Of a stretch of DNA of 64,000 nucleotides, positions 46,085-57,834 are shown piece after piece. The first letter of the stretch is position 1, and each line of letters starts with the position of its first letter. A model generated the notes under the pieces. That model had not been told where the DNA came from. It worked only from the letters and a program-made list of their open reading frames with translations, and did not search any database. The position numbers and the translations under genes were made by a program. Source of the stretch: Maribacter sp. MJ134 (lineage in GTDB: Bacteria; Bacteroidota; Bacteroidia; Flavobacteriales; Flavobacteriaceae). The stretch lies in contig NZ_CP034570.1 of assembly GCF_003970695.1 (NCBI RefSeq), positions 2,046,001 to 2,110,000 on the forward strand, read 5' to 3'.

Positions 46085-46561
46085 TTAAAATCTAAAGTGG
46101 GAAAATGCTTTGTTCGCCTCGGCCATCTTGTGCGTATCTACTCTCTTCTTAACAGCAGCGCCTTCTTCTTTTGAAGCAGCTAGAATCTCAGCGGCTAATT
46201 TCTGCGACATACCTTTCTCGTTACGCTTTCTAGCAAAGCTGATTAGCCATTTCATTGCCGTAGAAATCTTTCTATCGGGTCTTATTTGCATTGGAATTTG
46301 AAAAGTAGCACCACCAACTCTTCTACTGCGGACCTCAACATGAGGCATAACGTTACTCAATGCATCTTTCCATAATTCTAAAGCTGTTTTTTCTTCATCC
46401 GTTTTCTTTGCATCCACAATATCTATTGCGTCGTAGAAAACACTGAAAGCCACAGATTTTTTTCCGTCCCACATCATCATGTTAACGAACCTTGTTACCA
46501 ACTGGTCGTTAAATCTTGGATCTGGTAAAAGAGGTCTTTTTTTCGCCTGTCTTTTTCTCAT
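46085..46561 (-). CDS. rpsG: 30S ribosomal protein S7
   Basis: 158 aa primary 16S-binding protein of the 30S head: [40 protein letters not shown], and the C-terminal [11 protein letters not shown]. 22 bp after rpsL. Confidence 0.98.
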
Positions 46562-46583
46562 TTCTTCTTTTTAAAAAGTGTTA

Positions 46584-46958
46584 TTACTTCTTAGGTCTTT
46601 TTGCTCCGTACTTAGATCTACGTTGTGTTCTACCGGCAACACCTGCGGTGTCCAATGCTCCACGAACGATGTGATATCTAACTCCTGGCAAATCCTTTAC
46701 TCTTCCGCCCCTTACTAATACTATCGAGTGCTCTTGAAGATTATGTCCCTCTCCTGGAATATAGGCATTCACCTCTTTTCCGTTGGTCAACCTAACCCTC
46801 GCAACTTTACGCATTGCTGAATTAGGTTTCTTTGGAGTGGTTGTGTACACACGTGTACATACCCCTCTTCTTTGTGGACACGAATCCAAAGCAGCCGATT
46901 TACTCTTCTTAGTAATTGTGGCTCTTCCTGTTCGTACTAATTGTGAAATTGTTGGCAT
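46584..46958 (-). CDS. rpsL: 30S ribosomal protein S12
   Basis: 124 aa decoding-centre protein. Conserved loops are [20 protein letters not shown] and [20 protein letters not shown]; the lysines linked to streptomycin resistance when mutated are the wild-type ones. First gene of the translation run, with an exact-consensus promoter upstream. Confidence 0.98.
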
Positions 46959-46981
46959 ACTATATAAATATGTATAAAATT

Positions 46982-46998
46982 ACCCTTTGTTTAAGGGT
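46982..46998. promoter_or_regulatory. Hairpin at the start of the rpsL leader
   Basis: ACCCTT (46982-46987), TGTTT, AAGGGT (46993-46998): a 6-bp inverted repeat lying right at the expected 5' end of the rpsL transcript. It might stabilise the mRNA or act in autoregulation. Confidence 0.35.
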
Positions 46999-47001
46999 CG
47001 G

Positions 47002-47032
47002 CAAATGTAGTAATATTTCCTAATAATTCAAA
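47002..47032 (-). promoter_or_regulatory. Promoter of the rpsL ribosomal run
   Basis: On the minus strand TTTG (47032-47029), 19 nt, TACATTTG (47009-47002): an exact match to the Bacteroidota primary sigma consensus TTTG-N19-TAnnTTTG. The leader to the rpsL ATG is about 40 nt. This is the best promoter match in the window. Confidence 0.8.
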
Positions 47033-47361
47033 CACCTGCCTAATTATTTTAAAACTTTTTTTCACCTCCCTATTTGAAACAAAAAAAAGACCTTTAGTAA
47101 GTACAAAAAAAGTCAGGCCAATTGCTTATTACCATCTATTAATCTTTTTAAATCGACAAACCTATTTTTTATAGAGTTTTACCTCTAATATTATCAAATT
47201 CTCAAAATCCATATTGTTACGTTATACATAGTAAAATTCAATAGCCGTTTCATTTATAACTTTGAAATAGTATCTGCATCCTTAAAGTTTTATTAAAATT
47301 AGTTTGGATTATTAACACATTATTATGATTTTTGCGCTTAGCTAATTCAAATAATTAAAAA
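47033..47361. other. Intergenic region upstream of the susC-like gene
   Basis: About 330 bp of AT-rich sequence with no gene. Besides the rpsL promoter at its left edge, it contains a second exact -7-like element TAACTTTG on the plus strand (47257-47264, no -33 partner) and the candidate SusC promoter described separately. I see no riboswitch-like or tRNA-like structure. Confidence 0.6.
47303..47334 (+). promoter_or_regulatory. Candidate promoter of the SusC/SusD operon
   Basis: TTTG (47303-47306), 20 nt, GATTTTTG (47327-47334): exact -33 and one mismatch in the -7 element. The leader to the ATG at 47362 would be about 20 nt. Confidence 0.5.
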
Positions 47362-50300
47362 ATGAGAACAAAACGAAATGGATTGTTAACGCTATTATTG
47401 GCGTTAATTGTGCATCTATCTTTCGCACAAGAAAAAACAGTTACCGGTACGGTTACTGACCAGGACGGACTTCCGTTGCCTGGGGTGAACATCGTTGTTG
47501 AAGGAACAACTAACGGTACCCAAACTGATTTCGATGGTAATTATTCCATCAGCGCTTCGCAGGGCCAAACACTTCTCTTTACCTATATAGGTCAGAAGGC
47601 AATGAGGCAAGCTGTAGGTTCAGGAAACACGGTAAACGTGCAAATGACCGAAGATGCTCAAGCCTTAGAAGAAGTAGTAGTTACTGCCCAAGGTATTAAA
47701 AAGTCAAAGCAAGCGCTGGGTTACGCCGTGGCTGAAGTTGGCAAAGAAGCTTTGGAGCAGCGACCTGAAGGTGACGTTGGTAGAATCCTAACCGGTAAAG
47801 CTTCTGGTGTAAACATTACAGCACAGAGTGGTCTTTCTGGATCTGGTACCAGTATCGTTATCCGTGGACTAAGTAGTTTTAGTGGTAGTAACCAACCGCT
47901 TTTTATTGTTGATGGCGTTCCTTTTGATAGTGGCACCAACGGACAGTCGCAAAGTGGTGAAGATAGTAGCTTTGTTGATGGGAATAACGGATCCAGTAGA
48001 TTCCTGGATTTAGACCCCAACAACATTGAAAACGTGAACGTACTTAAGGGTTTGGCAGCGGCCACCTTATATGGTACGGCAGGTCGTAATGGTGTTATCC
48101 TAATCACCACTAAAAATGGTGCTGCTGGCACTAGTGGTGGTGTAAAGAAAAATGAAATCACCGTAACTAGTTCATTATTCTTCAATGATATTGCTTCGCT
48201 TCCAGATTATCAGGATCAGTACGGAAATGGTTTCGACCAAGCTTTTGGATGGTTCTTTAGTAACTGGGGACCAAGTTTTGACAGAGACGGAGTCGCCGGT
48301 TGGGGTAACCAAGCAGCTATTGATGATGCAGGTACCTTAGCCCACCCATATTCAACTTCAACTTCAGCAATTAGAGCTGCGTTTCCGGAATTTGCCGGGG
48401 CACGTTATGATTGGAGACCATATGACAGTGTTGAAAACTTCTTCAGAACAGGTGTAGTAAAGAGTAACTCTGTTAACTTTAACGGGTCTTCAGAAGATGG
48501 TAAGGTTTCGTACAATGCCAACTTTGGTCACTTAGACGATGAAGGTTTTACACCTGAAAACGGTTTACAAAGGTATACGCTTGGTTTAGGTGGTAGAGCT
48601 ATCCTTTCCAATAAATTCACCGTTTCTGGAACTATGAACTTTTCGAATACAGATTTTAAATCACCTCCAATTGCTGCCAGTACGGGTAACAGCGTATTTG
48701 GTACGGGATCTTCATTGTTCGCTAACCTTTTCTACACCCCACGAAGTGTGGATATTCAAGGATTGCCTTTTGAAAATCCTATCACTAGAGGAAGTGTTTA
48801 CTATCGTCAGAACAACAGTATACAACATCCCTTATGGACTGTTAACAATGCTCAGACAAGACAGGTTACCAACCGTGTGTTCGGTAATGCAGCCTTAATG
48901 TATGATATTAATGACAACTTAAACCTTACTTATAGATTTGGTCTAGATGTGTACAGTGAAAACAATACAAACTCCCAAAACAAAGGAGGTATTGGTGGAA
49001 GTGTTGCAACGCAAAGCGGTATTCTACAAACATGGAACAACACAAACACTATCCTTGACCATAACTTTATCTTAACAGGACAGTACGAATTGTCCGAAAA
49101 AATTGGTTTCAGTTTCAATGCTGGTGCCACTACGAGAAGAGAAGTGTTCGATCAAAATGGTGTTGCAAGTTCTGGTCAACAAGCCTTTGGTGTGCTAAGA
49201 CACTTCAACTTTCAATTACAGGATGAAATTCAATTTTTCCAAGAAAGAAATATAGCAGGTCTTTACGGGCAGTTAGATTTTGATTACGATAGAAAAATTT
49301 ACTTAACGCTATCCGGAAGAAACGATTACGTATCTAACCTTGCAAAGGAGAACAGATCAATTTTCTATCCAAGTGCAAGTTTATCTTTAATTCCAACAAA
49401 GCTCATTGAAGGACTTCAGAGCCAAAATGGTATTAATTACATGAAACTGCGTGCGGGATACGGAACTTCTGCTAACTTCCCTACAGGATATCCTGTTGCG
49501 GCGACACTTGATTTAGATACACAGGATTTTCAAGATGGTGCTGGAAGAGATGTTACTACCAATACAAGTGCAGACCAATTGGGTAACCCTAATTTAAAGC
49601 CTGAACTTTTAGAGGAATTAGAATTTGGTTTGGAGACCAGATTGTTCAACAGTAGAGTCTCTCTTGATGCTTCTTACTATACAAGAACAACGAAAGACCT
49701 AATCATTGAACGTCCTTTAGATCCATCAACTGGTTTTATTCAAACACAGACTAACGTTGGTGAAATTAGTTCTTACGGTGTTGAATTAGATGCCACCGTA
49801 GATTTATTCAGAAGCGAAGAAGAAGGTGGTTTTAACTGGAGCATCAACTCAAACTTTACCGCTAATGAAACAGAAGTTGTAGACCTTGGTCTTGACACGG
49901 ACATTGTTGTATATGCCGGTTTTACTAACCTAGGTAATGCAGCCCGTGTAGGTGAGCCTTTAGGTGTAATCGTTGGTTCAAGAATCCAAAGAGATGAAAA
50001 CGACAACTTCATTGTAAACGGAGCAGGTAGTTATGCGGAAGAAAACGGAACTTTTACCATTGGTGACCCGAATCCAGATTGGTTATTAAATGTTGGTAAT
50101 AGTATCAATTATAAAAACTTTTCTTTCAACTTCTTAATGAACTATACCCATGGTGGGGATATCTATAGTAGAACTACTTCTGTTCTTCTAGGTAGAGGAC
50201 TTACCACGGATACCTTAGATCGTTTGAACAGTTTTATACTCCCTGGGGTAAAAGCAGATGGCACACCTAACGATGTAGCTGTAAACAACTCTACATTCTA

Positions 50301-50601
50301 CTTCAGTAACGTACTTTTCGGTCCTGATGAATTAGGTATTTATGACGCTTCTGTTATAAGATTACAAGAAGTTTCCCTTGGTTACTCTATGCCTTCAAAG
50401 TGGTTGGACAAAACACCTTTTGGGTCGTTAAGTTTCACGCTATCAGGTCAAAACCTTTGGTATGAAGCTATTAACATACCAAAAGGAACTAACTTTGATC
50501 CAAACGTTGCCGGTGTAGGTGTTGGTAATGGTAGAGGTTTTGATTACTTGAACGGACCAAGCTCAAGAAGGTACGGATTGAGTGTTAGAGCAACATTTTA
50601 A
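47362..50601 (+). CDS. SusC/RagA-family TonB-linked outer-membrane transporter
   Basis: 1079 aa. Signal peptide 1-22 (ending LSFAQ), carboxypeptidase-regulatory-like domain 24-98 (TVTGTVTDQDGLPLPGVNIV), a SusC signature ALEEVVVTAQGIKK (about 101-114), plug domain to about 240 (VRIL-type GRILTGKASGVNITAQSG, IRGLSSFSGSNQPLFIVDGV), then a large beta-barrel ending in Phe (YGLSVRATF). It imports an oligomeric nutrient with the SusD partner 18 bp downstream. No glycoside hydrolase or peptidase adjoins it, so the ligand is unknown. Confidence 0.95.
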   Translation: MRTKRNGLLTLLLALIVHLSFAQEKTVTGTVTDQDGLPLPGVNIVVEGTTNGTQTDFDGNYSISASQGQTLLFTYIGQKAMRQAVGSGNTVNVQMTEDAQALEEVVVTAQGIKKSKQALGYAVAEVGKEALEQRPEGDVGRILTGKASGVNITAQSGLSGSGTSIVIRGLSSFSGSNQPLFIVDGVPFDSGTNGQSQSGEDSSFVDGNNGSSRFLDLDPNNIENVNVLKGLAAATLYGTAGRNGVILITTKNGAAGTSGGVKKNEITVTSSLFFNDIASLPDYQDQYGNGFDQAFGWFFSNWGPSFDRDGVAGWGNQAAIDDAGTLAHPYSTSTSAIRAAFPEFAGARYDWRPYDSVENFFRTGVVKSNSVNFNGSSEDGKVSYNANFGHLDDEGFTPENGLQRYTLGLGGRAILSNKFTVSGTMNFSNTDFKSPPIAASTGNSVFGTGSSLFANLFYTPRSVDIQGLPFENPITRGSVYYRQNNSIQHPLWTVNNAQTRQVTNRVFGNAALMYDINDNLNLTYRFGLDVYSENNTNSQNKGGIGGSVATQSGILQTWNNTNTILDHNFILTGQYELSEKIGFSFNAGATTRREVFDQNGVASSGQQAFGVLRHFNFQLQDEIQFFQERNIAGLYGQLDFDYDRKIYLTLSGRNDYVSNLAKENRSIFYPSASLSLIPTKLIEGLQSQNGINYMKLRAGYGTSANFPTGYPVAATLDLDTQDFQDGAGRDVTTNTSADQLGNPNLKPELLEELEFGLETRLFNSRVSLDASYYTRTTKDLIIERPLDPSTGFIQTQTNVGEISSYGVELDATVDLFRSEEEGGFNWSINSNFTANETEVVDLGLDTDIVVYAGFTNLGNAARVGEPLGVIVGSRIQRDENDNFIVNGAGSYAEENGTFTIGDPNPDWLLNVGNSINYKNFSFNFLMNYTHGGDIYSRTTSVLLGRGLTTDTLDRLNSFILPGVKADGTPNDVAVNNSTFYFSNVLFGPDELGIYDASVIRLQEVSLGYSMPSKWLDKTPFGSLSFTLSGQNLWYEAINIPKGTNFDPNVAGVGVGNGRGFDYLNGPSSRRYGLSVRATF

Positions 50602-50619
50602 TTAAAAAAATATTTGATA

Positions 50620-52257
50620 ATGAAAAAAACAATTAAATACATAGCTGCTTTTTTTATTGCCGGAGCCCTTTTCAACTCCTGTGAGACAACTGAGCTAGAT
50701 CTGACTGAAGATCCAAATGCATTGACCCCTTCACAGGCTGACCCCGATTTCTACTTGAACGTTATTCAAGAGGATTTCGCAAGATTTACAGAATCTTTGG
50801 GAGAAACTATGGCAGAGGTTGTAAGAATAGAAAATATGTTCGGTAGAGATTACCAAAATGCATATGATCCTGCAAACTTTGACAACGAATGGGAAGAAGC
50901 TTATCAACAGATACTTCAGAACATTAAGGATATGAACGTTCTTACCAATGAGGCTGGTTTAACTAACCACACTGCAATGGGACAGTTCTACGAGGCTTAC
51001 ACCATATCTCTTTTAGTGGATTTCTTTGGTGATGTGCCTTATTCTCAAGCTTTACAAGCACCAGATATATTAAACCCGGTTCCTGACCCAGGTGCTGATG
51101 TTTATGCTGCTGCTATTGGGTTATTAGATAGTGCTATCGCTAACTTTAACGCTGGTGGTTCTGTTGATCCTCAGAATGACTTTTTCTACGACAATGATTA
51201 CGATCAGTGGATCTTAGCTTGTAACACCTTAAAATTAAGATTGTACAAGAATACTGGTAACAATGCCGCTTTCAATAGCATTATCGCTTCTGGTGACTTT
51301 ATCCAAGATTCAGCAGATGATATGCAGTTTCAGTGGGGAACTAATGAAGTTCAGCCTGATACACGTCATCCAGATTACGCCGACAACTATACTGTTACAG
51401 GTGGTGCTGATTATATGTCTATTTACCTAATGGAAATAATGGATCTTAGTGATGATCCCCGTATCAGATACTACTACTACAGACAAAATGCAACAGTACC
51501 TGGTTCAGATGGCACCCCTCCGAATGAAGAGACATTAGACTGTTCATTACAAGCGCCTCCTCCGCACTATGCCGCTGGTGGATTTACCTTCTGTACTTTA
51601 CCTAACGGATATTGGGGTCGTAATCATGGAAATGATGCCGGTACTCCTCCAGATGGTTTATTAAGAACTATTCCTGGCGTATACCCTGTTGGTGGTCTTT
51701 TCGATGATAGTAGTTTCGCTGAATCTGGTCTTGGAGCTGGTGGTGGTGGAAACGGTGTAACACCGATTCTTTTAGCGTCTACTGTTGATTTTTGGAGAGC
51801 TGAAGTAGCTACCGCAGGTGGTGCTGCTGCTGCGAAACCTTTCTTACTGGATGGTATAGCTAAATCTATCGCCAAAGTACAAACCTTTGGATCTAGAGAT
51901 CCAGGTGCAGATTTATCTACTGCACCTACAGAGGCTGACGTTGATGCATTTCTTGCTTCTATTGAAGCAGATTTCGACGCTGCTGACGACGAAGGTAAAT
52001 TGAACATATGGGCAGAACAATTCTTAGTTTCTCTTAAAGGAAACGGTCATGATGGATACAACATGTACAGAAGAACAGGTTTCCCAACAACAATGGAGCC
52101 AAATTTAGAGTTAGATCCTGGAGCTTTTATCAGGTCTTTCTTCTATCCTGCTAATGCAGCTAACACGAACTCGAACATCTCGCAAAAAACAACCGTTACA
52201 GTTCAAGTATTTTGGGATACTAACCCAGCTTCACCTGGTTTCCCTGTTGGTAACTAA
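50620..52257 (+). CDS. SusD/RagB-family nutrient-binding lipoprotein (SusD-like_2 type)
   Basis: 545 aa surface lipoprotein that caps the SusC barrel. Signal peptide ends FNSC with lipidated Cys21. The helical TPR-like part includes LTEDPNALTPSQADPDFYLN, MNVLTNEAGLTNHTAMGQFY and LLVDFFGDVPYSQALQAPD, the last a hallmark of the family. I start at ATG 50620; the frame is also open from a TTG two codons upstream. Gly- and Ala-rich loops in the middle (GAGGGGNGVTP) may form the binding surface. Confidence 0.92.
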   Translation: MKKTIKYIAAFFIAGALFNSCETTELDLTEDPNALTPSQADPDFYLNVIQEDFARFTESLGETMAEVVRIENMFGRDYQNAYDPANFDNEWEEAYQQILQNIKDMNVLTNEAGLTNHTAMGQFYEAYTISLLVDFFGDVPYSQALQAPDILNPVPDPGADVYAAAIGLLDSAIANFNAGGSVDPQNDFFYDNDYDQWILACNTLKLRLYKNTGNNAAFNSIIASGDFIQDSADDMQFQWGTNEVQPDTRHPDYADNYTVTGGADYMSIYLMEIMDLSDDPRIRYYYYRQNATVPGSDGTPPNEETLDCSLQAPPPHYAAGGFTFCTLPNGYWGRNHGNDAGTPPDGLLRTIPGVYPVGGLFDDSSFAESGLGAGGGGNGVTPILLASTVDFWRAEVATAGGAAAAKPFLLDGIAKSIAKVQTFGSRDPGADLSTAPTEADVDAFLASIEADFDAADDEGKLNIWAEQFLVSLKGNGHDGYNMYRRTGFPTTMEPNLELDPGAFIRSFFYPANAANTNSNISQKTTVTVQVFWDTNPASPGFPVGN

Positions 52258-52273
52258 TTAAATAAAAGAAAAA

Positions 52274-53131
52274 ATGAAAAAACTAAGTTTATATTTTTTA
52301 ACCTTTGCAACTGTCTTTTTCACGAGCTGTGAAAGCGATGACAAAATTGTAATAGATGTTATTGACGGTATAACCAGCAGTGCTATCTTAAGAACAAGAA
52401 GCATTGAAAGTGGTACTTTCAATAGGTTTGACACTTCATCGATTTTCTCTGTAACCGTAGAGCAACAAGATGAAGAGAATGGTGCCCTATTATCCTCTGT
52501 AGACGTCCTCGTATCTTTCGCGGACAACAAAGATGATGGTGTGGATAATTCTAAAGCAGAAGTAGCTTACACTACTATCCCTGCAAGCGAATTTAGCCCA
52601 AGTGAAAGAGGTCTTCCTCAAACGAACTTTACTGCTACCTTAGCTGAGGCTTTGGCTGCAGTTGGTTTGGTCGATGGACAATTTGACGGAGGGGATACCT
52701 TTAATTTTAGATTTGTTGTTAACTTAACGGATGGCACTTCTTGGTCAGCCGCCAATGGAAATGGAAACATCACCGGTGGTTCCTACTTTAGCTCACCTTA
52801 CCAGTATACTGCTGGGGTAGCTTGTATACCTGTTACACCAGTGTCTGGAACCTACAACCTTGACATGGAAGATACCTATGGAGATGGTTGGGACGGAGCA
52901 TTCTTTACAGTTTCTATTGATGGTGAAACTACGGATTACACTATAGAATCAGGTAGTGCTGCGAACTTTGATATTGTTGTTCCTGACGGAACAGAGGAGT
53001 TGACTTTCACCTATACTCCAGGAAACTTCGAAGAAGAGCATATTTGGGAATTAACTGCACCGACCGGAGAAACAGCAGCAGCTGGTTCACCTGGGCCTGG
53101 TGGAGATATTGTATTGAATATTTGCAATTAA
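52274..53131 (+). CDS. Hypothetical lipoprotein of the SusCD operon
   Basis: 285 aa. Signal peptide ends FTSC with lipidated Cys19. The N-terminal two thirds (20-180) are beta-rich without a known motif. The C-terminal part has MEDTYGDGWDGAFFTVSIDG (about 198-217), the Asp/Gly-rich DTYGDGWDG motif seen at the ends of many secreted Bacteroidota proteins and likely a calcium-binding beta-sandwich. It is 16 bp after susD and precedes the terminator, so it is the third operon gene and may be a SusE-like surface binding protein; that role is inferred. Confidence 0.8.
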   Translation: MKKLSLYFLTFATVFFTSCESDDKIVIDVIDGITSSAILRTRSIESGTFNRFDTSSIFSVTVEQQDEENGALLSSVDVLVSFADNKDDGVDNSKAEVAYTTIPASEFSPSERGLPQTNFTATLAEALAAVGLVDGQFDGGDTFNFRFVVNLTDGTSWSAANGNGNITGGSYFSSPYQYTAGVACIPVTPVSGTYNLDMEDTYGDGWDGAFFTVSIDGETTDYTIESGSAANFDIVVPDGTEELTFTYTPGNFEEEHIWELTAPTGETAAAGSPGPGGDIVLNICN

Positions 53132-53155
53132 ATATCCGAACAATAGAATAAGAGT

Positions 53156-53192
53156 AAAGGCCAAACTTTAAGAGTTTGGCCTTTCTTTTTTT
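53156..53192 (+). terminator. Terminator of the SusCD operon
   Basis: AAAGGCCAAACT (53156-53167) and AGTTTGGCCTTT (53173-53184) form a perfect 12-bp stem with a 5-nt loop, followed by CTTTTTTT. Confidence 0.92.
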
Positions 53193-53218
53193 AATATCTT
53201 ACCATCAAAAAATTTCTT

Positions 53219-54532
53219 ATGAAAAAGTTAAGCTATAGGCAATATTTAATGCCACTTTTCTCCTTCATACTACTATATTCTTGTGAAACAACAGAACCAA
53301 CGGTAGTAATACCTTCCGCTCCAGAGCAGGAGCAAACAGACCCAGCGGAACCTGAAGTGGAAAATGTAGGCCCTGTTCAGTTTTTCAATAAGTCTAAAAT
53401 GGATAATAATTATGTTTTGGTGAATGATGCCAAGGCCAACTCCGTGTATCTTATGGACAAAGATGGGGCTATCCTTTACGACTTTCCACTTAACGGAGAA
53501 CGATTAGGCAATGATGTTTTTCTATTGGACAACGGCCAACTTCTGGCCATGCTAGAATCTGCCGACCCCAAAATAGAAATTGGAGGTTTCGGTGGTAAAC
53601 TACAAATATTGAACGCTGACGGAACCATCGCCTGGAATTTTGATTATTCCTCTGATGACTATATACTTCATCACGATGCCGAAATGTTACCGAACGGTAA
53701 TATCCTTACTATGATATGGGAACGCAAGACCCCCGAAGAATCAATAGAAGCGGGTTATTCACTAAACGTTGAGACTTTTCCTGACGGTCTAATAGAAATA
53801 GACCCAGTTACCAACACTATCGTTTGGGAATGGCATGTTTGGGACCATGTTATTCAAGAGCACGATAGCACAAAATCCAATTTCGGAACTGTAGCTGATA
53901 ATCCACAACTAATCGATGTCAATTATGTAACCGATGAAAACGGGGATATCACACACGGCAACGCAATCTCATATGACCCTGTAAAAGACGTCATTTATTT
54001 AAGTGCCAACTTCTATAGTGAGGTTTGGGTAATTGACCATAGTACTACCTCAGAAGAGGCATCCTCGAATACCGGTGGGCAATACGGAAAAGGAGGAGAT
54101 TTAATATACAGATTTGGTAATCCGTCCGCTTATAAAAATACCCAAGGAGAGCGATTATTTCACAACAACCACTACCCTAACCTACTAGATGGAGCAGATG
54201 AAGGAAAAATGTTAATATTTTCTAACGGTGCAGAATTAGAGAAATCAACGGTCTATGAACTGAACTTACCTAACACCTTTGAATTACTACCTAACCTAAA
54301 TAATGAACCCGAGGTACTATGGGAGTTCTCTAATGATGAACTCTATTCCCCTAAAGTTTCAGGAGCAGTGAAGCTTCCCAACGGAAACATACTTATTACC
54401 GAAGGTGATTTCGGTATTTGGGAAGTTACTAAAGAAAAAGAAATAGTTTGGAAATATAGCCAAGATGGATTTTTTTGGAGAGCTTATCATTACGATAAAA
54501 ATGCCCCTGAAATTAAGTCTCTAGGGCTTTAA
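53219..54532 (+). CDS. Arylsulfotransferase (ASST)-like lipoprotein
   Basis: 437 aa. Signal peptide ends LLYSC with lipidated Cys22, then a Pro/Glu-rich linker (to about 50) and a beta-propeller resembling Arylsulfotransf_2. Repeated blades have the form VYLMDKDGAILYDFPLNG, QILNADGTIAWNF, IEIDPVTNTIVWEWHVWDH; HHDAEMLPNGNIL, THGNAISYDP and HNNHYPNLLDG bear conserved histidines, one of which would carry the sulfate in true ASSTs. Known members move sulfate between phenols in the periplasm; here activity is unproven. It starts 27 bp after the SusCD terminator. Confidence 0.8.
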   Translation: MKKLSYRQYLMPLFSFILLYSCETTEPTVVIPSAPEQEQTDPAEPEVENVGPVQFFNKSKMDNNYVLVNDAKANSVYLMDKDGAILYDFPLNGERLGNDVFLLDNGQLLAMLESADPKIEIGGFGGKLQILNADGTIAWNFDYSSDDYILHHDAEMLPNGNILTMIWERKTPEESIEAGYSLNVETFPDGLIEIDPVTNTIVWEWHVWDHVIQEHDSTKSNFGTVADNPQLIDVNYVTDENGDITHGNAISYDPVKDVIYLSANFYSEVWVIDHSTTSEEASSNTGGQYGKGGDLIYRFGNPSAYKNTQGERLFHNNHYPNLLDGADEGKMLIFSNGAELEKSTVYELNLPNTFELLPNLNNEPEVLWEFSNDELYSPKVSGAVKLPNGNILITEGDFGIWEVTKEKEIVWKYSQDGFFWRAYHYDKNAPEIKSLGL

Positions 54533-54559
54533 ACAAAACACACACGTTTCTTAAATTTA
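54528..54559 (+). promoter_or_regulatory. Candidate promoter of the secreted paralogue genes
   Basis: TTTA (54528-54531), 20 nt, TAAATTTA (54552-54559): one mismatch in each element. It overlaps the stop of the preceding gene and lies 25 nt before the first paralogue. Confidence 0.35.
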
Positions 54560-54584
54560 TATAACCCATTATCCAAAAGAAAAA

Positions 54585-55328
54585 ATGAAAAAAATAATAT
54601 TTATACTTCTAGCATTTTTTATCGCCCCTACACTACAATCTCAAAATCTCAGTACTGCACCAACAGGAGAAGCAGGATTATTTGGTGCCGCACAGGGGGG
54701 TAGCCCCATGCTCAACCTAGTCTTGATGGAACTAAGAACCAATGCTAAAAGTAGAGATTTAGGAGAAACAGTAGGTAGCCCCTACTCCACCGAAAACTTT
54801 GTGAAAAGTAAAATTTATTATGGGGACGAACCTCAAGGTGATTTCTTTATTCGCTATAATGCTCTTAACAGTGTCATTGAGATGAAAAAAACAGATTTAC
54901 CAGATGAAGAAGCGAAAAGGCTATATCCCGATAAGAAAATCAAAATTAAATATTTAAATAAAGAATTACGTTTTACTACCTACATTAACAAAAAGAACGA
55001 AACAAAAAATGGATATTTATCGCAAATAGCATCCGGCTCTAAGTACAAACTATACCATAGACTAGCGGTCAAATATTCGGAGGGTAAACCCGCGATTAAC
55101 TCTATGGTAGCAGATATTCCTAGTAGATTCGCTCATTTTGAAGAATATTATTATCAAAAAATAGGAGTAGACCGTATTGACTTTTTACCACAGAAAAAAG
55201 GTGGCTTCATTAAACAATTCGATAAAGAATTGCGGGAGAACATTAAAATCTATCTCAAAGAAGAAAATATAAACTTAGATCAAGAAGAAGATTTAATTAA
55301 GGCATTTAATCATATTAACGCTATGTAA
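54585..55328 (+). CDS. Secreted protein, paralogue family member A (247 aa)
   Basis: I do not recognise this family. Signal peptide 1-20 (ends LQSQ, no lipobox). Shared landmarks with the next two genes: GSPY (64-67), KIYY (76-79), FIRYNALNSVIEMKK (88-102), and the best-conserved block LYHRLAVKYSEGKPAINSMV (156-175) followed by ADIPSRF and EEYYY. The C-terminal third is Lys-rich and helical. No enzyme motif or membrane segment is visible, so it is probably periplasmic or extracellular. One base separates its stop from member B. Confidence 0.8.
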   Translation: MKKIIFILLAFFIAPTLQSQNLSTAPTGEAGLFGAAQGGSPMLNLVLMELRTNAKSRDLGETVGSPYSTENFVKSKIYYGDEPQGDFFIRYNALNSVIEMKKTDLPDEEAKRLYPDKKIKIKYLNKELRFTTYINKKNETKNGYLSQIASGSKYKLYHRLAVKYSEGKPAINSMVADIPSRFAHFEEYYYQKIGVDRIDFLPQKKGGFIKQFDKELRENIKIYLKEENINLDQEEDLIKAFNHINAM

Positions 55329-55329
55329 A

Positions 55330-56106
55330 ATGAAAACGTCCAAGATAATTATGTTCTCTTTTGTTTTACTTTTCTCTGTATCCATATGCGGACAGCAGGT
55401 AGGAGTAGCAAATTTTGGTGGTTCTGATGTAGAAAATGACCCCTTCGCAAATTTTCATCAGCAATTTACACCTATGATGACTAATTTATTTCAACTTGTA
55501 AGTAATAATAAAGATTTTATTGAGTATAACATTGGTTCCGATATTGGATCACCATACGTCAGTGATGAGTTCTTACCTGGCAAGGTATATTATGAAGATG
55601 AGCACCTAGGAAATTATTACTATCGTTTTAATGCTTATAATGGTGAAATTGAATTAAAGGCTACCCTACTAGAAGAAGAGCAAGAAAAGGCTTTGGTACA
55701 AGATGCCAAAGTAAAATTGGAAACTGCTCAGGGAACTTTGCAATACTTGAGTGTTGAAAACAAAAAAGGACAAATTGAAGAATCGTATTTAATTTCTGTC
55801 AACGAAACCAAGCAGTATAGCCTATTTGAAAGAATACGTATAAAATATACGGAAGGAAAAGAGGCTGCGAATTCAATGGTAACTGCAATTCCTAGCAGGT
55901 TTACTACCTACAGGGAGTATTACTATAAAGTGAAGGATATAAATCCCATTGTTCAAATTCCGAAACAAAAAAATAAATTTATCAAACACTTTGTTCCAAA
56001 GGAAAAATTAAATGAAATCAAAAAGTATTTAAAATCGAATGAAATAGATTTAGAAAATGGGAAAGACTTGATATCCTTATTTAATAAAATTCACGAAAAG
56101 GAGTAA
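55330..56106 (+). CDS. Secreted protein, paralogue family member B (258 aa)
   Basis: Signal peptide about 1-22 (ends SICGQ; the single Cys lacks a good lipobox context). It shares with member A GSPY (73-76), KVYY (85-88), YYRFNAYNGEIELK (97-110), LFERIRIKYTEGKEAANSMV (165-184), AIPSRF and REYYYK. Residues 110-125 are Glu-rich (LLEEEQEKALVQD), also found in member C. It is 1 bp after A and clearly in the same transcript. Function unknown. Confidence 0.8.
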   Translation: MKTSKIIMFSFVLLFSVSICGQQVGVANFGGSDVENDPFANFHQQFTPMMTNLFQLVSNNKDFIEYNIGSDIGSPYVSDEFLPGKVYYEDEHLGNYYYRFNAYNGEIELKATLLEEEQEKALVQDAKVKLETAQGTLQYLSVENKKGQIEESYLISVNETKQYSLFERIRIKYTEGKEAANSMVTAIPSRFTTYREYYYKVKDINPIVQIPKQKNKFIKHFVPKEKLNEIKKYLKSNEIDLENGKDLISLFNKIHEKE

Positions 56107-56221
56107 CTTATCGAGAAATCCATAATAATCCCTTCTTTTAAATATAATAAATTAATTATCAGCAGCTTGCGCTCTTTTTTTTCATAACTTAAGGATTCAT
56201 AATTAATTAAACCACAATCCT

Positions 56222-57025
56222 ATGAAAAAACAGTTTCTTACACTCATCTTAACATGTATCTGCGTAACAGTAACATTTGCACAGGTATCTCAGAGTACCG
56301 GCGATTTACGAGCACAGGCAACCACTTGCGGTGATTTAGACGCATTATTTACCCAGTCTGGTAGTTCCCTTCATAATTTAATGTATGCCGATGTGAACGC
56401 TTCTTCAACGGGAACAACGGTATCGGCGCAACAAATTAAGGGCTCTCCTTTCTTAGTTGATAATTTTCAAAAAAGTAACATCTATGTAAACGAGCAACTT
56501 CTTGGTTCTTTTTATTCTAGGTTCAACGCATACAGTCGAGAAATTGAAATTAAAAAGACCAATTTAGAAGAAGAACAATACAAGGCCTTGGTCAAAGATG
56601 AAAATATTAGAGTTGTTTTTGATGATAAAGAACTTCAGTACGCAAGTTTTATTGATGAAGATGGAAAAATAACTCAAGACTATTTAATAACAAAGTTATC
56701 AGGCTCAAATTACAACCTATATCAGCGCTATATTGTTAAATATGTTGAAGGGAAAGAGGCAGCAAATTCTATGGTAAATGCTATCCCTGCGCGTTTTTCA
56801 AATGCTACCGAGTACTACTTAAAGGATTTGAACTCTAATTTGGTGAGTTATATACCAACAAAGAAGTCTAAACTATTAAACTTGTTTAGCAGCGACCAAA
56901 AAATGCAGGTTGCAGCACTAATAAAGAAGAAGGGATTAAATCTAAAAAAAGAATCCTCTTTAGTACAGATTCTAACATTTGCGAATACGCTAAATACCGT
57001 AGACTTGGCTTCCCAGGGAAAATAA
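56222..57025 (+). CDS. Secreted protein, paralogue family member C (267 aa)
   Basis: Signal peptide 1-20 (ends TFAQ). Shared blocks: GSPF (74-77), NIYV (86-89), FYSRFNAYSREIEIKKTNLE (97-116), LYQRYIVKYVEGKEAANSMV (166-185), AIPARF and TEYYL. It has an extra N-terminal segment with a Cys (TTCGDLDALF, 35-44) not present in A or B. A 115-bp AT-rich gap separates it from B, so it may have its own promoter, though none matches the consensus. A strong terminator follows. Confidence 0.8.
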   Translation: MKKQFLTLILTCICVTVTFAQVSQSTGDLRAQATTCGDLDALFTQSGSSLHNLMYADVNASSTGTTVSAQQIKGSPFLVDNFQKSNIYVNEQLLGSFYSRFNAYSREIEIKKTNLEEEQYKALVKDENIRVVFDDKELQYASFIDEDGKITQDYLITKLSGSNYNLYQRYIVKYVEGKEAANSMVNAIPARFSNATEYYLKDLNSNLVSYIPTKKSKLLNLFSSDQKMQVAALIKKKGLNLKKESSLVQILTFANTLNTVDLASQGK

Positions 57026-57046
57026 TCAAAGGAGTATAAGAATTCT

Positions 57047-57087
57047 AAACCGCTCGGCTAATAACCGAGCGGTTTTTGTTTATTTTT
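57047..57087 (+). terminator. Terminator after paralogue C, directly upstream of rlmB
   Basis: AAACCGCTCGG (57047-57057) and CCGAGCGGTTT (57065-57075) form a perfect 11-bp stem with a 7-nt loop, followed by TTGTTTATTTTT. The T-rich tail ends 7 nt before the rlmB ATG. Confidence 0.9.
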
Positions 57088-57093
57088 ACATTT

Positions 57094-57834
57094 ATGGATA
57101 AAGCCACCCAGATATACGGAATTAGAGCTATAATTGAAGCCGTAAATACCAATGAAGAAATTGACAAAGTTTTTATTCAAAAGGGTTTAAGGGGTGATTT
57201 AATCAAGGAGCTAGAAGGGCTGCTTCGAAGAAATGAAATTAATGTCTCCTATGTGCCCCCTGAGAAACTGAACAGATTAACCAAAGGTAATCATCAAGGT
57301 GCCGTTGCTAATATATCCCCTATCGCCTTCTCTACTTTAGAGGAGCTAATCGAAAAAGTGCAACAAAAAGAAAAGCCTGCGCTATTCCTCCTTTTGGACC
57401 AGTTATCGGACGTTCGTAATTTTGGAGCCATTATCCGTACGGCGGAATGTTCTGGCGTGGACGGTATTATCATACAAAAGAAAGGTGCCGCCCCAGTTAC
57501 TGCGGATACCATAAAAACTTCCGCTGGTGCCGCATTTAAAGTTCCTATTGCAAAAGTGGACCATCTTAAGGATGCCGTCTTTTACTTACAGGCATCAGGG
57601 ATAAAGGTAGTAGCTGCCTCAGAAAAAACGAATACTTCAATCTATGATGTCTCCTTTAAACAAGATATTGCTATAGTCATGGGTGCGGAGGACAAAGGTA
57701 TTTCACCTTCTATCTTAAAAGCGGCGGATTATACCGCCAAACTTCCTTTATTAGGAGAAATAGAATCACTCAACGTTTCCGTGGCTTGTGCTCTTTTTCT
57801 ATATGAGGCAGTTCGTCAGCGCATGTATACTTAA
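57094..57834 (+). CDS. rlmB: 23S rRNA (guanosine-2'-O)-methyltransferase RlmB
   Basis: 246 aa SPOUT-class SAM-dependent methyltransferase. The N-terminal substrate-binding domain (IYGIRAIIEAV, KGNHQGAVANISP) is followed by the catalytic domain with LLLDQLSDVRNFGAIIRTAE, VMGAEDKGISPSIL and ESLNVSVACALFLYEAVRQR, which build the knotted SAM site. I start at ATG 57094; the frame is open from a TTG at 57076 that lies inside the terminator tail. Convergent with the rhomboid gene, with no base between the stop codons. Confidence 0.95.
   Translation: MDKATQIYGIRAIIEAVNTNEEIDKVFIQKGLRGDLIKELEGLLRRNEINVSYVPPEKLNRLTKGNHQGAVANISPIAFSTLEELIEKVQQKEKPALFLLLDQLSDVRNFGAIIRTAECSGVDGIIIQKKGAAPVTADTIKTSAGAAFKVPIAKVDHLKDAVFYLQASGIKVVAASEKTNTSIYDVSFKQDIAIVMGAEDKGISPSILKAADYTAKLPLLGEIESLNVSVACALFLYEAVRQRMYT

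Follow-up and report, generated by a model that had tools for sequence, protein, structure and literature searches.

What do three related secreted proteins do when their genes stand in tandem downstream of a SusC/SusD operon? The locus that raises this question lies in Maribacter sp. MJ134, in a stretch of 64,000 nucleotides (contig NZ_CP034570.1, positions 2,046,001 to 2,110,000, hereafter the window), where three consecutive genes, here named A, B and C, follow those of a SusC-type TonB-dependent transporter, a SusD-like lid and a third lipoprotein, Lip1. SusCD and other TonB-dependent importers are the central nutrient uptake machines of Bacteroidota. Our best reading, which we hold with about even confidence, is that the three proteins would act in the periplasm, as soluble accessory subunits of certain TonB-dependent transporter-lid systems, which in this locus means the SusC/SusD/Lip1 system encoded upstream. 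Judged from their sequences, they belong to a family that has no name, is spread across the Bacteroidota and consists of small Sec-exported proteins bearing type I signal peptides, and the case for the proposed role comes from gene neighbourhoods across the phylum and from co-divergence at the home locus.

A phylum-wide family of exported proteins

The three genes stand exactly where the initial annotation had placed them, on the strand and with the lengths that it gave (Table 1), A and B being 1 base apart and B and C 115 bases. The other two proteins are 38% and 33% identical to A, with a mean column identity of 57% in the trio alignment, and a search of their own genome with B returned A at 9.6e-43, C at 5.8e-38 and no other match at E<=10; alignment and whole-genome search together bear out the proposal that the genes arose by duplication. 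A profile search of the same genome added a fourth, remote paralogue (G000:C1:3470746-3471408, E=1.6e-6). The ordered landmarks described for the trio are all present, but two spacings had been misread: one landmark is [FY]NA-x4-IE-x-K rather than a form with x2, and between RF and EYY there are 3-4 residues. No catalytic motif had been seen, and we likewise find no obvious catalytic residues.

The window trio has no credible match in Pfam, NCBIfam, PHROGs or PDB sequences, which upholds the view that it belongs to no recognisable family; the same result was obtained for a 104-member set in Pfam and PDB sequences, and for 30 diverse members in Pfam, NCBIfam and PDB sequences. Stray matches were set aside as short or weak, namely Glyco_transf_61 (E=0.0046) in one protein, YwhD in 4 of 104 and 3sy3, an uncharacterised protein (E=0.0038), the stray families among the larger member set being judged from the best 25 of 36 listed. 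A profile search of Bacteroidota genomes, named earlier as a check, found many relatives and no characterised family. Relatives occur in 37 of 60 near-relative genomes and, across the phylum, in at least 83 of 395 genomes with one profile and at least 85 of 395 (40 of 171 genera) with a second, more diverse profile, counts that may be too low as hit lists were partial or few candidates were scored per genome. The family is phylum-wide in Bacteroidota, large and often single-copy. Searches of the literature, which for want of a family name went by terms and by the genes nearby, found nothing pointing to it. Copy amplification recurs: four family copies are clustered in each of two other genomes (L183 and L184), in L183 as two pairs around one gene. 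A metagenome record titled Nocardioides (L128) carries a Muricauda-type cluster whose family gene is nearly identical to that of L130, and is probably a mis-binned contig.

Inspection confirmed a signal peptide on each of the three proteins. Glutamine stands directly after the signal peptide in 104 of 104 aligned members and in 30 of 30 of the diverse set, and according to two reports glutamine follows the cleavage site in signal peptidase I substrates of this phylum, the Q-rule (PMC10653852; PMC5837995). As read from the sequence, the window trio carry type I signal peptides, and none of the three has a lipobox (signal peptidase II site); among 121 surveyed relatives, a crude pattern picked out 8 that look like lipoproteins, by pattern calls only. 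Over the window trio and the 30 diverse members, Pfam gave no match to SusD, DUF4249 or related models, to type 9 sorting domains (Por_Secre_tail and kin) or to FecR, and NCBIfam none to the BamP model NF053692.

Transporter genes beside family genes

Outside the home cluster we surveyed 97 loci, at other sites and in further families, from 68 genomes with one to four loci each. They comprise 17 of the first 20 fetched (3 of rlmB type were left out) and all 80 of a later batch; loci were picked by hand from hit lists, the 80 being chosen after the first links had been seen, though not by neighbourhood. Per locus only the family gene nearest the centre was counted, and the 40 control regions were the opposite point of the same contigs for 40 of the 80 later loci. 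Within 3 kb, 30/97 loci had a TonB-dependent transporter gene on the same strand (opposite strand, 4/97), as against 1/40 controls (opposite strand, 0/40; Fisher p=9.9e-5), as detected with a transporter profile seeded from family-adjacent transporters and iterated on test and control loci together, which may favour the test loci. Within 300 bases the counts were 13/97 versus 0/40 (p=0.011). Relatedness was handled only by counting one locus per genome, and the excess is then weaker than in the full count, yet it stands (15/68 versus 1/40, p=0.0048); 26 of the 68 genomes have at least one transporter-linked locus. Co-localisation of the family with transporter genes is above chance, in a minority of loci.

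Family gene and transporter gene share one same-strand gene run in 28 of the 97 loci, in two main layouts. In 12 loci the order is family gene, transporter, DUF4249; in 13 it is transporter, SusD (or another gene of 474-545 amino acids in that place), further genes in some, and then the family gene. The family gene also precedes the transporter in L233, L265 and L272, and where the transporter lies downstream, the distance between the two genes is -125 to +61 bases in 13 loci. Pfam confirmed DUF4249 for 5 genes, found BT_3987-like_N in the third gene of L223 and L248, and assigned CarbopepD_reg_2 and Plug to the 6 scanned transporters of the DUF4249 layout, 3 of which also have an STN match below the cut-off. 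The home arrangement is met again in G107, a distant family of the class, as SusC-SusD-Lip1-family gene (hidden Markov model (HMM) matches 1.8e-305, 2.5e-138 and 1.2e-21), followed by a second set that reads SusC, SusD, lipoprotein, subtilisin, family gene. A SusC-like match in L050 and L055 was dropped as a further SusCD set, the upstream genes of L055 being atpD and atpC by Pfam, and L058 was likewise not counted as SusCD evidence.

Co-divergence and layout of the home cluster

The home-cluster set comprises 74 loci (L104-L177), most of which have one layout: SusC-SusD-Lip1, downstream of it the family gene together with passenger genes, and then rlmB, rhomboid and rarA (exceptions are L175 and L176). 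A core tree of 115 rows, a quick build with Shimodaira-Hasegawa-like approximate likelihood ratio support (SH-aLRT) only and with long-branch warnings, separates groups A (15 rows), B (14) and C (7) with support of 99, 95 and 100, and a group D of 70 rows. Other strains carry separate orthologues of each of the three window genes, so that the duplications that gave rise to A, B and C are, on this tree, old.

Over 40 complete rlmB-adjacent clusters the distances of the first family gene correlate with those of SusC, SusD and Lip1 at 0.83, 0.83 and 0.81, and with those of the flanking RlmB and RarA at 0.44 and 0.45; the partial correlations given RarA were reached in 0 of 999 permutations. The 33 complete group-D clusters, for which only upstream genes were counted and no permutations run, gave 0.76 for SusC, 0.76 for SusD and 0.86 for Lip1, with 0.54 for RlmB and 0.51 for RarA; given RarA, the partial correlations are 0.74, 0.74 and 0.84 for the three cluster genes and 0.22 for RlmB. 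Loci lacking a gene on the contig were dropped, and the counts thus used 40, 56, 48, 35, 29 or 33 of 73 loci.

Which genes accompany the family here is summarised for the window in Table 1. By BLAST, Lip1 is present in 63 of 63 clusters that show SusD and rlmB, which the BLAST labels divide into 10 A-type and 53 D-type (an HMM count of Lip1 misses one locus, L148). The passengers are, by Pfam, arylsulfotransferase (ASST)-like and/or FG-GAP/UnbV genes and rarely GSDH-type genes: FG-GAP/UnbV is found in 0/10 A-type and 39/53 D-type clusters, and ASST in 6/10 and 26/53. Passengers of about 1120 amino acids with FG-GAP repeats and a UnbV_ASPIC domain stand beside SusCD in L039:7042-10413 and alike. 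In the complete A-type clusters A is followed by B in 10 of 10, and C is also present in 3; the window cluster, which lies outside this count, has all three. Directly 3' of the last family gene stands rlmB in 53 of the 74 loci, an ASST-like gene in 11, a GSDH-type gene in 1 and SusC in 1, the remainder being other genes (3), contig ends (4) and one locus without a separate family open reading frame (ORF). The region as a whole (46085-57834 in the window; L104-L177) is a fixed site with exchanged passengers, lying in many relatives between a conserved gene run and rlmB/rhomboid/rarA; in the window the run upstream comprises ORFs that we take to be fusA-like, rpsG-like and rpsL-like.

Table 1. 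Features of the SusC/SusD/Lip1 cluster and of the family genes, in window coordinates
Feature	Position	Strand	Description
SusC-type TonB-dependent transporter	47362..50601	+	1079 aa; TIGR04056 E=6.7e-169; CarbopepD_reg_2, Plug and beta-barrel Pfam domains
SusD-like lid lipoprotein	50614..52257	+	547 aa; PF12771 SusD-like_2 E=7e-40
Lip1, third lipoprotein	52274..53131	+	285 aa; no Pfam match over cut-off; no named family
Terminator-like hairpin, Lip1 to ASST-like gene	53156..53184	+	13 pairs
ASST-like lipoprotein (predicted), variable passenger	53219..54532	+	437 aa; PF05935 E=8.2e-19
Family gene A	54585..55328	+	247 aa; signal peptide, N-terminal segment, core
N-terminal segment of A	54642..54773	+	residues 20-63; conserved within group A; mostly low pLDDT
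Family gene B	55330..56106	+	258 aa
N-terminal segment of B	55393..55545	+	residues 22-72; as conserved as core within group B; low pLDDT
Family gene C	56222..57025	+	267 aa
Terminator-like hairpin before rlmB	57047..57075	+	11 pairs, 7 G-C
aa, amino acids; pLDDT, predicted local distance difference test

The trio had been described as following a SusCD operon and an arylsulfotransferase-like lipoprotein, which is right, but a terminator-like hairpin stands between Lip1 and the ASST-like gene. As a second hairpin follows C, rlmB is probably outside the cluster; similar hairpins occur in 52 of 68 intervals before rlmB. The hairpin after Lip1 is perhaps a site of partial termination.

Fold, N-terminal segments and a putative periplasmic role

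The N-termini of the three proteins had been said to differ freely. Among the trio they do, with a mean identity of 0.17 as against 0.37 in the core, and the conserved core that had been proposed is upheld. Inside groups A and B, however, they show conservation (0.46 and 0.44, with core identities of 0.62 and 0.45), so that the N-terminus of each of these two paralogues is under constraint within its own group. Treating the segment as noise is thus argued against for groups A and B, and less so for C and D, in which mean N-terminal identity is 0.24 and 0.27 and core identity 0.57 and 0.53 (L149, whose family gene is hidden by an overlapping ORF, was left out of these group tables). The notion of variable partner-binding ends survives as a general idea of partner-specific N-termini, though the ends are variable between paralogues rather than within groups A and B, and conservation is lower in C and D.

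The AlphaFold2 models of A (mean pLDDT 85.9, predicted template modelling score (pTM) 0.74) and B (86.2, 0.75) have an identical order of elements, a run of beta-strands followed by three C-terminal helices, and thus do not have the unrelated folds that the initial annotation had said would speak against it. Core blocks nearly all exceed a pLDDT of 90, and those that come after the signal peptide have values of 42-56, except one at 73 in A; the N-termini of A and B are thus predicted to be mostly disordered alone, which is compatible with docking on a partner but does not establish it. Foldseek found 0 matches to either model in the PDB at E<=0.001, and the best VIA-align Z scores were 3.3 (root-mean-square deviation (rmsd) 3.4, 85 aligned) and 2.8 (rmsd 2.3, 49 aligned), with several PH rows at Z 2-3. 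These searches used the whole A and B models and their negatives cover Foldseek's own candidates; the beta core or the helical tail taken by itself may have a known fold, and the models are compatible with a new one.

Based on these data we propose that the family protein would stay in the periplasm and contact the transporter, at its plug or CarbopepD_reg domain, or a surface-bound lipoprotein partner in transit. The paralogue-specific N-terminus may serve as docking segment, and the beta core may receive, hold or pass on what the transporter imports. A and B, which co-occur in all complete A-type clusters, may function as a pair, to which C would be an optional addition. The simplest account is that a good part of the family serves particular transporter-lid systems, and that in the window three old paralogues serve one SusC/SusD/Lip1 system. 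The fuller claim, that a phylum-wide family whose fold is absent from the PDB forms a periplasmic subunit of some SusC/SusD and some transporter/DUF4249 systems and docks by N-terminal peptides, is put forward tentatively, and we think it rather less probable than not to hold in all its parts.

A number of observations weigh against a role in transport, and there are rival explanations. The family proteins could be periplasmic escorts or assembly factors, each specific to its client, for proteins that are exported to the surface, such as Lip1, FG-GAP/UnbV proteins and secreted proteases, acting outside the transport cycle, which we consider unlikely. In group D the co-divergence is best with Lip1 (partial 0.84 over the 33 clusters, as against 0.74 for SusC and SusD; 0.72, partial 0.70, in a count over 48 loci that took the nearest SusD on either side), and the partial for FG-GAP/UnbV is 0.73 (35 loci). 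Counted on either side, SusD, which in some loci then belongs to another SusC-SusD set, falls to 0.47 beside 0.50 for RlmB, with a partial of 0.35, and RlmB's own group-D partial of 0.19 was also reached in 0 of 499 permutations. Two family genes are present in 5/5 group-D clusters with two Lip1 genes versus 6/44 with one (Fisher p=2.4e-4, uncorrected for kinship; L148 and loci whose cluster contains a further SusC were left out), a link that counts for the transport reading as well. Subtilisins lie directly upstream of family genes in L188, L196, L221 and L240, and L182 too has a neighbour of the subtilisin family (S8), Pfam placing a Por_Secre_tail domain on the peptidases of L188, L196 and L182. 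Yet the family gene persists where both FG-GAP/UnbV and ASST-like genes are missing (4/10 A-type, 10/53 D-type clusters), and the co-divergence of ASST is low (r 0.37, 29 loci); on these two grounds we abandoned the view that ASST or FG-GAP proteins are the family's sole clients. The 12 loci with a plain family gene-transporter-DUF4249 order also speak against escorts, although proteins with DUF4249 could be lipoproteins of the surface in their own right. A dedicated pairing with Lip1 is weakened as well: in each of the 10 complete A-type clusters a single Lip1 stands with two to four family genes, and therefore no simple one-to-one pairing applies, and for 5 of the 36 Lip1-like places listed in the phylum a family match is listed no further than 5 kb away.

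Further observations also count against the preferred reading. No transporter gene stands in the same-strand run of 69 of the 97 loci; stand-alone sites recur beside tsaB-like/mscS genes and one follows atpD-atpC; gamma-glutamyltranspeptidase or porin genes lie downstream of family genes in other loci; the fourth copy in the window genome has genes for a CN_hydrolase and a Big_5-domain protein as neighbours; and that genome has at least 20 SusC-type genes (24 of 65 candidates scored), with family genes seen at one. At the home cluster, the hairpin after Lip1 is kept in 67 of 74 intervals to the next gene though the cluster continues, as against 11 of 80 intervals before family genes of other contexts, and because of this conserved hairpin transcription may be partly separate and a single simple operon is not assured. 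The unlinked loci and the recurrent sites are what one would expect of a general envelope family whose role is unrelated to transport and whose SusCD links reflect hitch-hiking in a few lineages. We judge this somewhat less probable than escorts, as the strand bias of 30 to 4 with 1/40 in controls holds at one locus per genome, gene ends overlap in several cases, and the divergence of the family follows that of SusCD more closely than that of rlmB and rarA. Least probable of all, in our estimate, are released or surface substrate-binding proteins resembling an extra surface binder minus its lipid anchor: neighbouring genes encode predicted surface lipoproteins and the proteins are small and, in the models, strand-rich, but the trio has no lipobox, and neither the trio nor the 30-member set has a secretion-tail match in Pfam.

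The preferred reading, a periplasmic accessory subunit, has partial parallels in known systems. In the SusCD utilisomes for levan and dextran of Bacteroides thetaiotaomicron, as the published account describes them, a SusC barrel and SusD lid work with system-specific extra partners encoded alongside, which are outer-membrane or surface components (PMC7618045); the window proteins, with a type I signal peptide and no lipobox, would instead be a periplasmic partner. BT2173, a DUF4249 protein, was proposed to act together with the TonB-dependent transporter BT2172 (PMC11003636), and would be a non-SusD transporter partner, as we suggest for the family, the family gene lying directly before transporter-DUF4249 sets in the loci of the first layout; the family has neither a DUF4249 match nor a lipobox. 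BamP is described as an exported protein of the periplasm that serves an outer-membrane machine, the BAM complex of Flavobacterium, as accessory subunit, and its paralogues have folded domains in common but differ in a linker (PMC12611786); the family has no NCBIfam BamP match and its recurrent neighbours are transporter genes.

FecR-type anti-sigma proteins are partners of STN-domain transporters. Family genes resemble theirs in being encoded just before a transporter, in some loci one with a weak STN match; the family differs in having no FecR match and a cleavable signal peptide.

An exported, un-anchored family that is tied genetically to a fair share of importers is a candidate for a missing periplasmic part. 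If this is true, such importers would have a dedicated component on their inner side besides those at the surface.

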